From Nocardioides bizhenqiangii (lineage in GTDB: Bacteria > Actinomycetota > Actinomycetes > Propionibacteriales > Nocardioidaceae), in contig NZ_CP141059.1 in the NCBI RefSeq assembly GCF_034661235.1, forward strand, positions 2,603,501-2,667,500: DNA of 64,000 bases, written 5' to 3'. The notes beneath the pieces were generated by a model, which ran no database searches, was not told where the DNA came from, and saw only the letters and a list, made by a program, of their open reading frames with translations. The translations under genes and the position numbers were made by a program. This document shows positions 58,394-62,987 of this stretch, piece by piece (within the stretch, counting starts at the first letter, position 1; every line of letters starts with the position of its first letter).

Positions 58394-58455
58394 GCTGCCG
58401 GGCCGCGGTTGACGCGGTCATTAGTGGCGGTTGTCCGGCGTCTCACCGTCGGCAC
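58394..58455. repeat. 62-bp direct repeat, copy 2
   Basis: Second copy of the repeat at 58198-58259, about 134 bp away and 38 bp before the ligase start. Confidence 0.72.
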
Positions 58456-58493
58456 AGACCGGACTGGGGGTCTCCCCCGGTACCGTCGGCGAC

Positions 58494-60053
58494 GTGCTGC
58501 TCAACGAAGTCGTGGAGACCTCTGCGGCGGTCGCGGCCACCCGGTCGCGCAAGGAGAAGACGGGGCTGATCGCCGACCTGCTGGCCCGCACCGAACCGGG
58601 CCAACGGGAGCTCGTCGCCTACTACGTCAGCGGCCGGCTCCGGCAGCGCCGCACCGGGCTCGGCTGGCGCGGGCTGCAGACCCTGCCCGAGCCGGCCGAC
58701 GCGCCGTCGCTCGGCGTCGACGAGGTCGACGCGGCGTTCGAGCACCTCGGCTCGCTCGGCGGCACCGGATCGGTGGCCGCGCGAGCGGCCGCCGTCGCCG
58801 ACCTGTTCGGGCGGGCCACCGCGGACGAGCAGGATTGGCTGCGGGCGGTGGCGCTCGGCAACGTCCGCCAGGGCGCACTGGAAGCGGTGATGACCGAGGG
58901 GGTCGCGCAGGCGGCGAGCGCCCCGGTCGCCGACGTCCGGCGGGCGGCGATGCTCGCCGGCGGCGCGACGTACGTCGTCGACGCGGCGTTCGCCGGACCG
59001 GACGCGCTGGCCGCGATCGGCCTGACCGTGGGACGCCCGATCCAGCCGATGCTGGCGTCGTCCGCGCCCGACCTGGAGGCGGCCCTGGCGAAGATCGACG
59101 GCCCGCTGGCGGTCGACGCCAAGCTCGACGGCATCCGGATCCAGGTGCACCGTCGCGGCGACGAGGTGCTGGTCGCGACCCGCAGTCTCGACGACATCAC
59201 CCACCGACTGCCCGAGGTGGTCGAGGTGGTGCGGTCCCTCCCGGCCGAGGAGCTGGTGCTCGACGGCGAGGCGCTCGCGCTCGACGCCACCGGCCGGCCG
59301 CGGCCGTTCCAGGAGACTGCCTCCCGCACGGCGTCCGCCGCAGACGGCAGCACGGTGGTCACGCCGTACTTCTTCGACGTGCTGCACCTCGACGGGCGCG
59401 ACCTGCTCGACCTGCCGGCCACCGAGCGCTGGGCAGCGCTTGAGGCCCTGGTGCCCGAGGCACACCGGGTGCCGCGCTGGCGCGGCACGGACCCGGCGGC
59501 CGCCCGGTCGTTCACGGAGCAGGTGCTCGCCGACGGGCACGAGGGGGTCGTGGTCAAGGCAGCAGGAGCGCCGTACGCCGCCGGCCGGCGCGGCGCGTCG
59601 TGGATCAAGGTCAAGCCGGTGCACACCCTCGACCTGGTCGTCCTCGCGGTCGAGTGGGGCTCCGGCCGACGGCGCGGGACGTTGTCCAACATCCACCTCG
59701 GCGCGCGCGACGACGACTACCCGGAGCGGTTCGTGATGCTGGGCAAGACCTTCAAGGAAACTGGGTTACATACTACTGGCTGGGTGCACGTCGGGAAGAC
59801 TTTCAAGGGCATGACCGACGAGATGTTGGCTTGGCAGACGGAACGCTTCCTCAAGCTCGAAGTCAGCCGGGACGGTCAGGTGGTCCACGTGCGACCAGAG
59901 CAGGTGGTCGAGATCGCGTTCGATGGAGTTCAGCGGTCGACCCGGTATGCGGGTGGCGTCGCCCTGCGGTTCGCTCGCGTGGTCCGCTACCGCGACGACA
60001 AGACTGCCGGCGAGGCTGACACGATCGAGAGCCTCAGATCGCTTCTCCCCTGA
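58494..60053 (+). CDS. ligB: ATP-dependent DNA ligase (LigB-like) with foreign 3' end
   Basis: A 519-aa ligase. An N-terminal helical domain (~1-185) precedes the adenylation motif KLDGIR (Lys 210), ATRS, the GEAL motif, EGVVVK and WIKVKP, then the OB domain. GTG 58494 follows TACCGT by 7 nt. Oddity: after GKTFK (59742-59756) comes a 12-residue insert and a second GKTFK (59793-59807) before GMTDEML continues. From there the codon use changes and the end ([14 protein letters not shown]...) duplicates a second copy at 62004-62222. The 3' ~300 bp therefore appear to have arrived with the inserted segment. The enzyme probably remains functional, since all motifs persist; this needs testing. Confidence 0.88.
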   Translation: MLLNEVVETSAAVAATRSRKEKTGLIADLLARTEPGQRELVAYYVSGRLRQRRTGLGWRGLQTLPEPADAPSLGVDEVDAAFEHLGSLGGTGSVAARAAAVADLFGRATADEQDWLRAVALGNVRQGALEAVMTEGVAQAASAPVADVRRAAMLAGGATYVVDAAFAGPDALAAIGLTVGRPIQPMLASSAPDLEAALAKIDGPLAVDAKLDGIRIQVHRRGDEVLVATRSLDDITHRLPEVVEVVRSLPAEELVLDGEALALDATGRPRPFQETASRTASAADGSTVVTPYFFDVLHLDGRDLLDLPATERWAALEALVPEAHRVPRWRGTDPAAARSFTEQVLADGHEGVVVKAAGAPYAAGRRGASWIKVKPVHTLDLVVLAVEWGSGRRRGTLSNIHLGARDDDYPERFVMLGKTFKETGLHTTGWVHVGKTFKGMTDEMLAWQTERFLKLEVSRDGQVVHVRPEQVVEIAFDGVQRSTRYAGGVALRFARVVRYRDDKTAGEADTIESLRSLLP

Positions 60054-60060
60054 CGGCTAC

Positions 60061-60921
60061 TCAGCCGAAGGTGCCTGTGTCGCGCTTCTGAACCAAGCCA
60101 CCCGCGAACCAGCCGACAAGGGTCACCGCCATGAGGACGGCGGCCTCAGCCTCGTCGTGGGTCACGTCGGAGTACGCCTCACTACCGTGCCGGTCGCGCT
60201 GCCCCCGGTACAGAGACTTGAGCAGACCGAGCAGCACGTCCCGCGACGGGTATTCCGTGTGCTCTCGGACGAACGGCAGTCGCCAGGTAGCGCCCTTTGC
60301 TTCGATGGCACGCACCGCGTGGGAGATGTTGGCGTTCTCGTTGGAGATGCCGAGAGCAGGGAACGCCGCCGACTCCACAGCCTTGACGGCGTTCCAGTAC
60401 GCACCACCATCATCAGGCTCAAGATCGTGAACCTTCACCCACGCCCGCTTGAGAAGCGTGCCGGCAGTTGAGTCGCCGCTCATCACCTCCTCGGCCGCGA
60501 GGCGGACACCCTCAGGCACACGTGTGCCAAGCCGGTCGTAGTCCCCGTGATCGACGACAGTGAACCGGGAGCGGCCTGTCTTTAGGATCGTCTCAAGCGC
60601 GCTCGATCGCCCGCGGTACTTTCCCTGCTTGAAGACTGTGTAGTCGGCTACCCGTAGCAGATCCCGGTCGGACAATGGCTCCAAGAGGCTGCGGCAGTTC
60701 GCCTCGTCAATCAGCCCGGTGTACTCCGGCCTGATGTTGAAGTCCAAGTCCAGAGCGTTCTCCAGTCGCCGGAACGACTCGACGTTCGCGAATCCCCTGT
60801 CCAGGTACGTGCCCAGAATCCACGTCGTCAGCGCAGGTCGCATCGACTTGGGGACACCGCCACGCAGCACGGCCCACTGCTCCGCTTCTTCCTCAGTCGC
60901 ATCGAACGGCACGAAGTCCAT
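60061..60921 (-). CDS. HEPN-domain (abortive-infection-like) protein
   Basis: A 286-aa protein. The C-terminal half (~170-280) is a HEPN-like helical domain with AYWNAVKAVESAAFP, SRDVLLGLLKSLYRGQRDRHGS (an R-x(4-6)-H signature in RGQRDRH) and a final membrane-like helix AAVLMAVTLVGWFAGGLV. HEPN domains are RNases of abortive-infection and toxin systems. The N-terminal half is unassigned. ATG 60921 follows TAGTCT by 7 nt (leaderless). It is convergent with the ligase, 7 bp apart, on the inserted island. An anti-phage role is inferred. Confidence 0.6.
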   Translation of the reverse strand: MDFVPFDATEEEAEQWAVLRGGVPKSMRPALTTWILGTYLDRGFANVESFRRLENALDLDFNIRPEYTGLIDEANCRSLLEPLSDRDLLRVADYTVFKQGKYRGRSSALETILKTGRSRFTVVDHGDYDRLGTRVPEGVRLAAEEVMSGDSTAGTLLKRAWVKVHDLEPDDGGAYWNAVKAVESAAFPALGISNENANISHAVRAIEAKGATWRLPFVREHTEYPSRDVLLGLLKSLYRGQRDRHGSEAYSDVTHDEAEAAVLMAVTLVGWFAGGLVQKRDTGTFG

Positions 60922-61050
60922 GTGAACCAGACTAGGCGAACAGACGTTCGATCCTGCGCGACCTGACTGTCACATTCGACGCCGCTTCGCGCCTGCGCGA
61001 CGACGGTGCGTGGCGGACTGAGGACGCTGACCTCGCCGACGGCGCCCAAC

Positions 61051-61443
61051 TCAGTTTCTCAAGTCGTCGTCCGAATCGAACGGCGTCTCGCGACCGGTGC
61101 GAGGGTCGTAGGCGAACCACCTGCCGCCCGTCATATTGGGCAACTCGGGTTCCGAGGGCAGTACGCGGTCGGGGCTGGGTTCCAGGTCGTACAGGTGGTA
61201 CACGAGATACTCATACTCGGGAGGCATGGCTGCTAGGCATCTGATGACGTAGCCGGCGATGTCATCGAAGACCCCGAAGGCCACGTACATATCGTCCAGG
61301 TCGTCCGGCGTCATGACGACGACGACGGTTCGCCCATCAGCGAGAGTCACAAGGAAGCCACCGTCCCCTGGCACAGCCGACTGTGCCCAGGAGTCAACCT
61401 GGCTGACCAACCTGAGCCAGTCGCGACGAGCGGGAGACTCCAT
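61051..61443 (-). CDS. Hypothetical protein
   Basis: A 130-aa acidic, soluble protein that I do not recognise. It has a beta-rich first half (GGFLVTLADGRTVVVVMTPDDLDDMYV, ~28-54) and a Pro/Asp-rich C-terminus (PNMTGGRWFAYDPRTGRETPFDSDDD). The frame is free of stops, but no clear ribosome site or TANNNT-spaced promoter is visible before ATG 61443. Location inside the island, 129 bp upstream of the HEPN gene on the same strand, is the only contextual clue; it might be an immunity partner. Confidence 0.5.
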   Translation of the reverse strand: MESPARRDWLRLVSQVDSWAQSAVPGDGGFLVTLADGRTVVVVMTPDDLDDMYVAFGVFDDIAGYVIRCLAAMPPEYEYLVYHLYDLEPSPDRVLPSEPELPNMTGGRWFAYDPRTGRETPFDSDDDLRN

Positions 61444-61540
61444 AACGGAAGTCTGTCACGCACGCTCACCAGGCAGGAGCGCGCACGCAGGGCGGCAATA
61501 GCGTGCGGTTTCGCGCAGCGGCAGATCCCGGACATACGAA

Positions 61541-61563
61541 GCCCCCGCTCTCGAGCGGGGGGC
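61541..61563. terminator. Hairpin terminator after the small secreted-protein gene
   Basis: GCCCCCGCTC and GAGCGGGGGGC form a near-perfect stem with a 2-nt loop, about 20 bp past the stop at 61584 (minus-strand gene). A T-containing tract follows on the minus strand. Confidence 0.72.
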
Positions 61564-61583
61564 CTCGTACTCCCAGGAGATTT

Positions 61584-61877
61584 CTACTGCGTGATGACGA
61601 GCTCGTGGTTGCCGCTCTTCGAGGTGCACTCGAACGGGCTGCCCCCTGCGAGGACCTCCGCGATGATCGCTACGGTGACGTTGCCGACGCAGATGTTGGC
61701 CGCTGCGTTGATCGGGATCTGGACGGCGACCTCGTTGTTGTTCAGCAGGTTCGTGATCTGAACGTTGACGAGGTTGCCCACCGCAATCGGGGGCTGTGCC
61801 TGAGCCGACGCGGTCGATCCGAGCGTCGCTGCCGCTGCGAGCGCTGCACTAGCAGCACCCATGGCGATATACCTCAT
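61584..61877 (-). CDS. Small secreted protein, chaplin/rodlin-like character
   Basis: A 97-aa protein with a Sec signal peptide (~1-28, cleavage near ASAQAQ). A mature ~70-residue beta-prone domain is rich in Asn/Val/Ile (VNVQITNLLNNNEVAVQIP, ~38-56) and has two cysteines (~63 and ~84) that could pair. The composition recalls actinobacterial surface proteins of the chaplin/rodlin type, but I cannot confirm homology. ATG 61877 has AGGAGGAG 6 nt upstream; a 6-bp hairpin sits in the leader and a strong terminator follows. Being monocistronic with full signals, it is probably well expressed. Confidence 0.68.
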   Translation of the reverse strand: MRYIAMGAASAALAAAATLGSTASAQAQPPIAVGNLVNVQITNLLNNNEVAVQIPINAAANICVGNVTVAIIAEVLAGGSPFECTSKSGNHELVITQ

Positions 61878-61895
61878 TAGTTTCTCCTCCTCTGA

Positions 61896-61912
61896 GCCGA
61901 CGAAATGTCGGC
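61896..61912. promoter_or_regulatory. Leader hairpin GCCGAC-GAAAT-GTCGGC
   Basis: A perfect 6-bp stem with a 5-nt loop just upstream of the Shine-Dalgarno of the small secreted-protein gene. It may stabilise the mRNA or modulate translation. Confidence 0.45.
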
Positions 61913-62003
61913 TTTCCCAAGAACCTCGGTGCCCGTATCCCACGACCAGCAACCTGTTACTGACGGGTACCCTCCATCCGCGTCCGAATGGGGTCCGTGC
62001 GAA

Positions 62004-62222
62004 CGGTTCCAGGAGCTGAAGACGCACGAGGACGACTGGACCGTGCACGTCCGGCCGGAGCAGGTCGTCGAGATCGCGTTCGACGGGCTGCAGCGGTCGT
62101 CGCGCTATCCCGGTGGCGTCGCGCTGCGGTTCGCGCGGGTGGTGCGCTACCGCGACGACAAGACCGCCGACCAGGCCGACACGATCGAGACCGTGCGGCA
62201 GATCGCCACCCGAACCGGCTAG
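62004..62222 (+). pseudogene. Stranded original 3' end of the DNA ligase gene
   Basis: Seventy-two codons plus stop, homologous to the end of the ligase at 59844-60053: both contain [14 protein letters not shown] and [16 protein letters not shown]. Identity is high but clearly not complete, as between related species rather than a recent duplication. No start signal belongs to it; the short frame reading into it from 61905 begins in island sequence. It keeps the GC and codon style of the surrounding chromosome and is best read as the pre-insertion end of ligB. Confidence 0.8.
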
Positions 62223-62262: not shown

Positions 62263-62964
62263 ATGGCGACTCGCGCACCGCAGACCGACGGCCGACGCAG
62301 GGCGGCGGCCGCTCGACGCCGCGCGCGCAAGGAGCAGATCATCGCGGCCACCCGTGAGCTGTTCGACTCCCGCGGCGTGCGCGACGTCCAGATCGAGGAG
62401 ATCGCCGGCGCGGTCGGCATCAACCGGGCGATCGTCTACCGCCACTTCACCGGCAAGGAGGAGCTGTTCGCGCTCACCCTGGTCGGCTACCTCGACGAGC
62501 TCCACGACGCGATGCAGGACGCCGCGGCGTCGAGCACCGAGGCGCCCGACCGGCTGGCCGCCGTCGTCGGCGCCTTCATCGACTACGGCGTAGCGCATCC
62601 TGCGTTCGTCGACTGCGCTCAGTCGCTGATGGTGCGCCCCGGTGACGAACTGCTGGACGACATCTCCGACGGTGCGCTGTTCCGCCTCGGGCGCGGCATC
62701 ACCTCGTGCATGACGATCCTGTCGCAGGTGCTGGCCGAGGGCACCGAGTCCGGAGACTTCACGATGACCTCGGACCCGGTCGTGATGGCGAACACCATGT
62801 ACGCCAGCGGCCTGGGCGCCCTCCACCTGGCTCGTCTCGGGATCCTGGTCAGCGAGTCGGCGCCCGGTGTCCCGGTGGTCAGCCAGGTCTCCGCCGAGCA
62901 GGTCCGCGAGTACGTCGTGTCCTCCGCGCTGGCAGTGGTGATGCGGGGAGTCCGCGCCAGCTGA
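62263..62964 (+). CDS. TetR-family transcriptional regulator
   Basis: A 233-aa regulator with a basic N-terminus, the HTH VQIEEIAGAVGINRAIVYRHFTGKEELFALTL (~45-76) and a C-terminal ligand domain. ATG 62263 is 6 nt after TACAGT, so it is leaderless. It is convergent with a thiolase gene, separated by a dispersed repeat. By family (AcrR/FadR-like) and position it could regulate fatty-acid genes, but no target motif was found elsewhere in the window. Confidence 0.87.
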   Translation: MATRAPQTDGRRRAAAARRRARKEQIIAATRELFDSRGVRDVQIEEIAGAVGINRAIVYRHFTGKEELFALTLVGYLDELHDAMQDAAASSTEAPDRLAAVVGAFIDYGVAHPAFVDCAQSLMVRPGDELLDDISDGALFRLGRGITSCMTILSQVLAEGTESGDFTMTSDPVVMANTMYASGLGALHLARLGILVSESAPGVPVVSQVSAEQVREYVVSSALAVVMRGVRAS

Positions 62965-62987
62965 GACCGCGGGCGCCACCGGCGGGC

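Follow-up and report, generated by a model that had tools for sequence, protein, structure and literature searches.

In Nocardioides bizhenqiangii, the DNA ligase gene ligB very probably records the insertion of an element encoding a large serine recombinase (LSR), which entered the coding sequence, restored the gene by means of a 3′ end of its own, and later decayed. This reading concerns a 64,000-nucleotide stretch of the chromosome (positions 2,603,501 to 2,667,500 of contig NZ_CP141059.1; hereafter the window, in whose own positions all coordinates are given). It is carried by the chimeric ligB of the window with its foreign and native 3′ ends, by a core sequence common to the occupied sites, by relatives with an LSR at the same site, and by an exact crossover in one genome, G106. 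The initial annotation, made from the letters of the window, had proposed that an integrative element replaced the 3′ end of its target gene, and the full-length relatives at the same site support this main idea.

A chimeric ligase gene with a second 3′ end

The ligB product matches the Pfam families PF01068, PF04679 and PF04675 and scores 756 bits against the NCBIfam model PRK03180.1 (ATP-dependent DNA ligase; cut-off 641). Its C-terminal part begins with host sequence and reads ...FVMLGKTFK-ETGLHTTGWVHV-GKTFKGMTDEM..., followed by a complete C-terminus. Twelve residues separate the two GKTFK motifs, and alignment with the LigB of empty sites gives a net gain of 17 residues. The GC content at third codon positions (GC3) is 95% in upstream ligB, 80% in the functional 3′ end and 97% in a second, stranded 3′ end farther on; the repeated GKTFK, the divergent C-terminus and the different codon use that had been annotated are thereby confirmed. 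The GC content of the island between the two ends is 0.62–0.65, compared to about 0.69–0.77 in both flanks. Compared with the ligB genes of 84 empty sites, the functional 3′ end reaches at most 79.2% identity (loci lacking one clean N-terminal and C-terminal match were dropped from this comparison). By this composition, the functional end appears to be of foreign origin and the stranded one to be that of the host. In an AlphaFold model of LigB, residues 439–455 are the sole long stretch besides the N-terminus to fall below 50 in predicted local distance difference test (pLDDT) score, which is consistent with the extra residues forming a loop.

The stranded end, annotated about 2 kb downstream of the first, is present: an ungapped 148-nt pair (59883–60030 and 62043–62190) is 85% identical, the protein homology of the second end spans 61998–62204, and by eye the copy extends from GAA at 62001 to a stop at 62222. 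A gene for a TetR-family regulator follows. Among 73 single-copy named loci, 22 have such a gene starting no more than 110 bp downstream of ligB, and 46 have one within 3 kb (27 do not, four of which end early). Because TetR follows ligB at many single-copy loci, the stranded copy plausibly retains the original ligB–TetR junction.

Two similar 3′ ends close to each other could in principle reflect an assembly artefact or a simple local duplication. We give this next to no credence: the window is part of a single-contig genome of 4.55 Mb, the two ends differ by 15–22% and in codon use, and the same architecture appears in 15 other genomes of the genus and at two loci outside it. The locus is single-copy in its own genome, except for a 27-nt match of chance size elsewhere, and the named ligB loci listed as closest to it come mostly from Nocardioides.

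The double end recurs at an otherwise single-copy locus

A ligB followed by a second 3′ end on the same strand and contig occurs in 16 of 215 genomes of the genus (G000, which contains the window, and G009, G015, G019, G063, G067, G104, G108, G116, G130, G157, G161, G169, G191, G199 and G220). A LigB C-terminal match is found in 196 of the 215. The 94 genomes with at least two such matches were all re-examined, 13 of them with the full protein; the 102 single-match genomes had no second search, and broken sites like that of G106 (see below) may be missed among them. G180 showed no second ligB 3′ end on a separate look, and G184 was left uncounted, as its two ends sit on different contigs. Outside the genus, the site is occupied in Georgenia ruanii (L069) and in G496, a genome of another family. 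When 394 genomes were sampled across the class, LigB was found in 199 (E ≤ 1e-12), and at least two ends in no more than three, G000, G116 and G496, making the double-3′-end arrangement uncommon at this sampling.

We also considered whether the arrangement is ancestral and conserved, and rejected this: outside the seven occupied named loci, which were set aside, each of the 73 named loci (73/73) has a single 3′ end, and at least two ends were found in only three of the 199 LigB genomes of the class. An arrangement spread through the genus without an empty site, which the initial annotation had named as speaking against insertion, is not what these counts describe, with 16 of 215 genomes occupied and 196 having the LigB C-terminus.

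For comparison of the site itself we aligned 17 occupied loci. Functional ends are open in all of them (17/17), and stranded ends are damaged in six (G000, G019, G063, G161, G191 and G220). When both ends are measured against the five nearest of the 84 empty sites, the stranded end is the more host-like of the two at 11 of the 17 loci; the two are nearly equal at four (G015, G067, G108 and G169), and the order is reversed at two (G161 and G191), where the stranded end is either frameshifted or cut. The median ratio of nonsynonymous to synonymous substitution rates is 0.105 for functional ends that carry the extra residues (34 of 36 pairs, two having been dropped; a rough value, with synonymous divergence near saturation) and, equally roughly, 0.344 for stranded copies (14 copies of at least 70 codons, 91 pairs). 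Chimeric LigB probably retains ligase activity, of which the open frames and these ratios are an indirect sign. In a tree of 3′ ends (231 nt, 102 tips), seven of ten insert-class ends fall into one 11-tip clade with support 0.84, a grouping that may be owed to common base composition.

A crossover within the GKTFK codons and an insert kept in frame

The occupied loci place the attachment site precisely. The sequence AAGACNTT is retained at attL in 15 of the 17 loci and at attR in 11. In G106, attL reads GGGCAAG-AC-GAATC and attR reads GGATTC-AC-CTTCAAGG, which places the exchange at the AC dinucleotide, within the threonine codon of GKTFK. In the window, where the attL core and the in-frame arm are both present, alignment with these sites suggests that the crossover dinucleotide is the AC at 59748–59749, within AAG-AC-CTT.

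The initial annotation had instead singled out a pair of GAACG(C/G)TTCC sequences on either side of the island. The pair exists (59841–59850 and 62001–62010), although not as an attachment site; we rejected it as an att repeat since its members are Glu-Arg-Phe codons that the two ligase ends share by homology, and the core that the relatives have in common lies at 59742–59757.

An insert lies between the crossover and the second GKTFK in nine occupied loci. It is in frame in every case (9/9), measures 36–48 nt, and always ends in GW-x-x-V-GKTFK. A tenth insert, in G496, is nearly identical to that of G116, though the host families differ. Seven other LigB sequences of the genus align full-length through the insert (126–131 codons), and all come from occupied genomes (G199, G104, G009, G161, G130, G116 and G191). 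The extra residues would represent the translated P′ half-site of attP. Excerpts of work on the Bxb1 integrase give a minimum of 48 bp for attP and 38 bp for attB (PMC3642061); as a 48-bp attP implies a half-site of about 24 bp, each arm is long enough for one. The attP sites rebuilt from the two junctions form an inverted repeat about the AC in G106 (20 of 25 positions), G009 (16 of 25; P 0.0002) and G199 (15 of 25; P 0.0014).

These same junctions bear on the possibility that homologous exchange with the ligB-linked island of a related species gave the window its foreign 3′ end together with the cargo. Homology between the ends would allow this, and at four other loci they are 94–98% identical, as gene conversion would leave them. 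Yet exchange alone accounts neither for an insert located at the crossover, nor for a native end left stranded, nor for the LSR adjacent to it in relatives, and a donor bearing the island would itself still need explaining. Because the extra residues sit on the crossover and the functional end reaches at most the identity to empty sites given above, we disfavor this origin and consider it very unlikely.

Relatives with an integrase at the same site

In three relatives, an LSR gene starts beside attR: G009, G130 and G199, with elements of about 21, 12.8 and 11.8 kb. The integrase of G130 matches Pfam PF00239 and the PHROGs integrase family phrog_95 (2.7e-60). At E ≤ 1e-40, relatives of this LSR are found in seven of the 215 genus genomes, in eight copies, four of which adjoin ligB sequence.

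Tyrosine-integrase elements such as e14 typically replace gene 3′ ends, and the window retains no integrase; an original insertion by a tyrosine integrase or another recombinase could thus be entertained. We regard it as highly improbable, because all three intact insert-class elements (3/3) carry an LSR, no other integrase was noticed in their lists of open reading frames, the core is a short one, and symmetry about the AC is seen in the arms of G009, G199 and G106.

Two viral contigs encode LSR relatives (51% and 48% identity) and have the core AAGACCTT 30–40 nt before the integrase; no ligB end was found in either. Together with the chromosomal G106 case, these contigs make it seem that phages exist which target the ligB site without restoring the gene. 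At E ≤ 1e-90, the LSR family gave one match in the 394 class genomes, in G229, whose best LigB-type match is weak (E 5.9e-25, 37% identity).

G106 itself contains two near-identical copies of integrase plus arm (G106:C1:2214569-2256271 and 2629478-2630857). The first breaks ligB with about 42 kb of inserted DNA and no replacement 3′ end, and the other sits at an unrelated place. The LSR-bearing ligB elements (L113/L114 in G009, L123 in G130 and L128 in G199; about 12–21 kb) encode a tape-measure protein (PHROGs, in G130), a sigma-like protein, and proteins with scaffold-like or minor-tail matches. Among 13 of their proteins scanned besides the integrase, there was no terminase, portal or capsid. 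The elements may be phage satellites or decayed prophages.

How the gene would be lost and regained

These observations suggest the following sequence. An LSR-encoding phage or satellite would integrate in ligB, with crossover at the AC of the Gly-Lys-Thr codons (GGCAAG-AC-CTT). Because the attP and attB half-sites of an LSR differ, the left junction must hold foreign half-site DNA. The element would keep this half-site open and in frame, and then restart the ligase from a position slightly before the crossover (GWVxV-GKTFKG...), using a 3′ end that it brings along. The outcome would be a complete ligase with an extra loop, and a host 3′ end stranded behind the element. In the window, a later deletion would have removed the core, the P arm, presumably the integrase, and the first codons of the stranded end, leaving the cargo fixed. 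Since the core, the P arm and the first native codons are gone, at the side on which three relatives carry their integrase, the window is best read from its sequence as a remnant of an LSR element, not as an intact member, and the integrase end was probably deleted in this genome. What remains should no longer be excisable by the LSR route.

Several observations weigh against this account. The window has no integrase between its two ligB 3′ ends, as had been annotated, and its genome has no relative of the elements' integrase at E ≤ 1e-40. No attR core was found beside the stranded end of the window, where homology starts only at 62001, past the core. The symmetry of the rebuilt attP about the AC is not significant in G130 (11 positions, P 0.16), G104, G161, G116 and Georgenia. 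Four of the eight LSR copies lie away from ligB (in G042, G059 and G061, and the second copy of G106), those of G059 and G061 being weak matches on contigs other than that of ligB; the family may use several target genes. Neither phage records nor a fixed-insert-pattern search of viral contigs yielded a ligB 3′ end. Finally, an insert is absent from eight of the 16 sites in the genus, among them G015, G067, G108 and G169 (L115, L119, L121 and L126), whose host-like ends are 94–98% identical, in contrast to the other islands. These four could reflect gene conversion, or an element that captured its end from a host. Loss of the DNA between the two GKTFK repeats could mend the gene and leave the island fixed, as could conversion with the stranded end as template, and a different integrase may lie behind the insert-less class.

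Integrase-less cassettes at the same site

The absence of an integrase can also be explained without decay: the island may have been a natural integrase-less cassette, mobilized in trans by an LSR phage, and the window would have lost its right attachment site afterwards. The islands of G116 and Georgenia ruanii, 2.1 and 1.7 kb long, are bounded by the core on each side and lack an integrase. Moreover, several small integrase-less islands at ligB hold one defence system as cargo (HEC-01, HEC-04, PDC-S32, GmrSD with HEPN, or NACHT), and cassettes stand in tandem in G496. However, none of the genomes examined was shown to contain a cassette together with an LSR that matches it, the rebuilt attP of G116 and Georgenia lacks significant symmetry, and internal deletion of a prophage yields the same picture. 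For the window we therefore consider this course unlikely, though a serious contender. The initial annotation had left three options side by side (a remnant, mobilization in trans or homologous exchange); decay of an LSR element fits the window best, and mobilization in trans may apply to the cassette class.

In G496 (L170, G496:C4:576501-590500), three ligB 3′ ends follow one another with two cassettes between them, and the middle end is frameshifted.

More broadly, and only tentatively, we propose that the GKTFK codons of ligB are a docking site in Actinobacteria, used both by LSR phages and by integrase-less cassettes, often with a single defence system, that move in trans, and that the translatable attP half-site and the restart of the gene have evolved for this mode of insertion; we would put this broader proposal at somewhat less than an even chance.

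Relation to known systems

The staphylococcal cassette chromosome mec (SCCmec) integrates at the 3′ end of rlmH by means of serine recombinases (Ccr) and keeps its target gene functional. Only the last few codons are involved there, and neither a long replacement end nor a translated half-site is known for it. The comparisons that follow draw on excerpts of the cited papers. A close architecture is that of e14 at icd of Escherichia coli, which supplies a replacement 3′ end of 165 bp, encoding 54 C-terminal residues (PMC11148124). As at ligB, the insertion lies within coding sequence, the replacement end stands upstream and the native end is stranded beyond (PMC11148124). By contrast, the icd product restored by e14 differs in two conservative residue changes and gains no residues (PMC11148124), whereas the ligB family acquires about 15–19 extra residues from the foreign arm and the integrase of its relatives is an LSR.

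Mycobacterial LSR phages (Bxb1 at groEL1, Bxz2, MabI and MabJ) likewise have attB in coding sequence (PMC8092301, PMC9262239, PMC3642061), and in these excerpts have in common with the ligB elements the LSR, a short core, an asymmetric central dinucleotide and an attB within a gene. Serine-integrase sites of Mycobacterium abscessus are described as disrupting their reading frames (PMC8092301), and Bxb1 inactivates GroEL1 (PMC9262239); the ligB element, unlike these phages as excerpted, re-supplies the 3′ end. Such disruption is what differing half-sites of attP and attB would lead one to expect. For a site in the sixth codon of a SpoU-like gene of M. abscessus, the authors left reconstitution open (PMC10654092).

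Cis-mobilizable elements (CIMEs) are att-flanked remnants of 1.2–13 kb that carry cargo but no recombination genes and can stand in tandem, where decay is greatest in the element most distant from the target gene (PMC7563491). The ligB cassettes resemble them in being cargo flanked by att sites without an integrase, and the G496 array with its frameshifted middle copy resembles CIME accretion (PMC7563491). They differ in that CIMEs have a conjugative or mobilizable origin (PMC7563491), whereas the ligB relatives are phage-like (tape measure, minor tail) and the identified cargo leans to defence. Of the two att sites that flank a CIME, the window lacks attR, and the islands of G116 and Georgenia keep the core at both ends.

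A literature search weighted to open-access papers found none tying a serine integrase to an attB in a DNA ligase gene, and, in titles and abstract openings, no gene-restoring serine-integrase system. Gene-restoring insertion as such is known; its achievement by an LSR, with an in-frame half-site as the price, appears to be new. The ligB case suggests how an LSR can insert without loss of the gene, if the foreign half-site stays readable in frame and is accommodated as a loop before the gene restarts. If the docking-site proposal is true, insertion by a serine integrase need not cost the host its gene. The ligB site also provides a mapped candidate attB in a gene of 199 of 394 sampled actinobacterial genomes, with possible use for integration vectors, and a compact site where defence systems appear one at a time, at which movement without an integrase of one's own becomes a testable question.

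Cargo and flanking genes of the window

The main cargo of the window is predicted to be a HEPN-like protein (cargo 1 in Table 1), which may have a role in defence. Its structural matches come from one structure search, and families outside the list of that search may match as well; Pfam, PHROGs, padloc and NCBIfam gave no match. Homologues number 46 proteins at E ≤ 0.001, itself included, and matches at E ≤ 1e-20 occur in eight of 342 genomes of the order, the window genome among them. Two homologues are labelled TIGR02391 by their source; NCBIfam gave no match for cargo 1 or for P0020.

Table 1. Positions of ligB segments, cargo genes and the flanking regulator in the window
Feature	Position	Strand	Basis and remarks
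Chimeric ligB	58431..60053	+	Complete open reading frame; apparently host-derived up to the crossover and element-derived beyond
attL core, GGCAAG-AC-CTTCAAGG	59742..59757	+	Junction alignment; exact crossover in G106
Element arm (net extra LigB residues)	59750..59792	+	In frame, as are 9/9 arms; putative P′ half-site of attP
Element-borne ligB 3′ end, restart at GKTFKG	59793..60053	+	GC3 80% vs 95%; alignments
Cargo 1 (286 aa), C-terminal domain predicted to be HEPN-like	60061..60921	-	Model pLDDT 86.9; structural matches
Cargo 2, 130 aa	61051..61443	-	9 proteins at E ≤ 0.001, itself among them; without match in Pfam, PHROGs, padloc and NCBIfam
Small protein, about 97 aa, signal-peptide-like start	61584..61877	-	30 proteins at E ≤ 0.001 including itself; no Pfam, PHROGs or NCBIfam match
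Stranded, apparently native ligB 3′ end, first codons and attR lost	62001..62222	+	Homology; GC3 97%; 59 bp before TetR
TetR-family regulator	62263..62967	+	PF00440; directly 3′ of ligB at many single-copy sites

Two side observations concern neighbouring genes. The LSR copy of G042 (L156, G042:C3:199001-210000) adjoins a gene read as an FKBP-type isomerase. In the window, the homologues of the small protein at 61584–61877 are mostly on short contigs, and it is a putative member of the element only.

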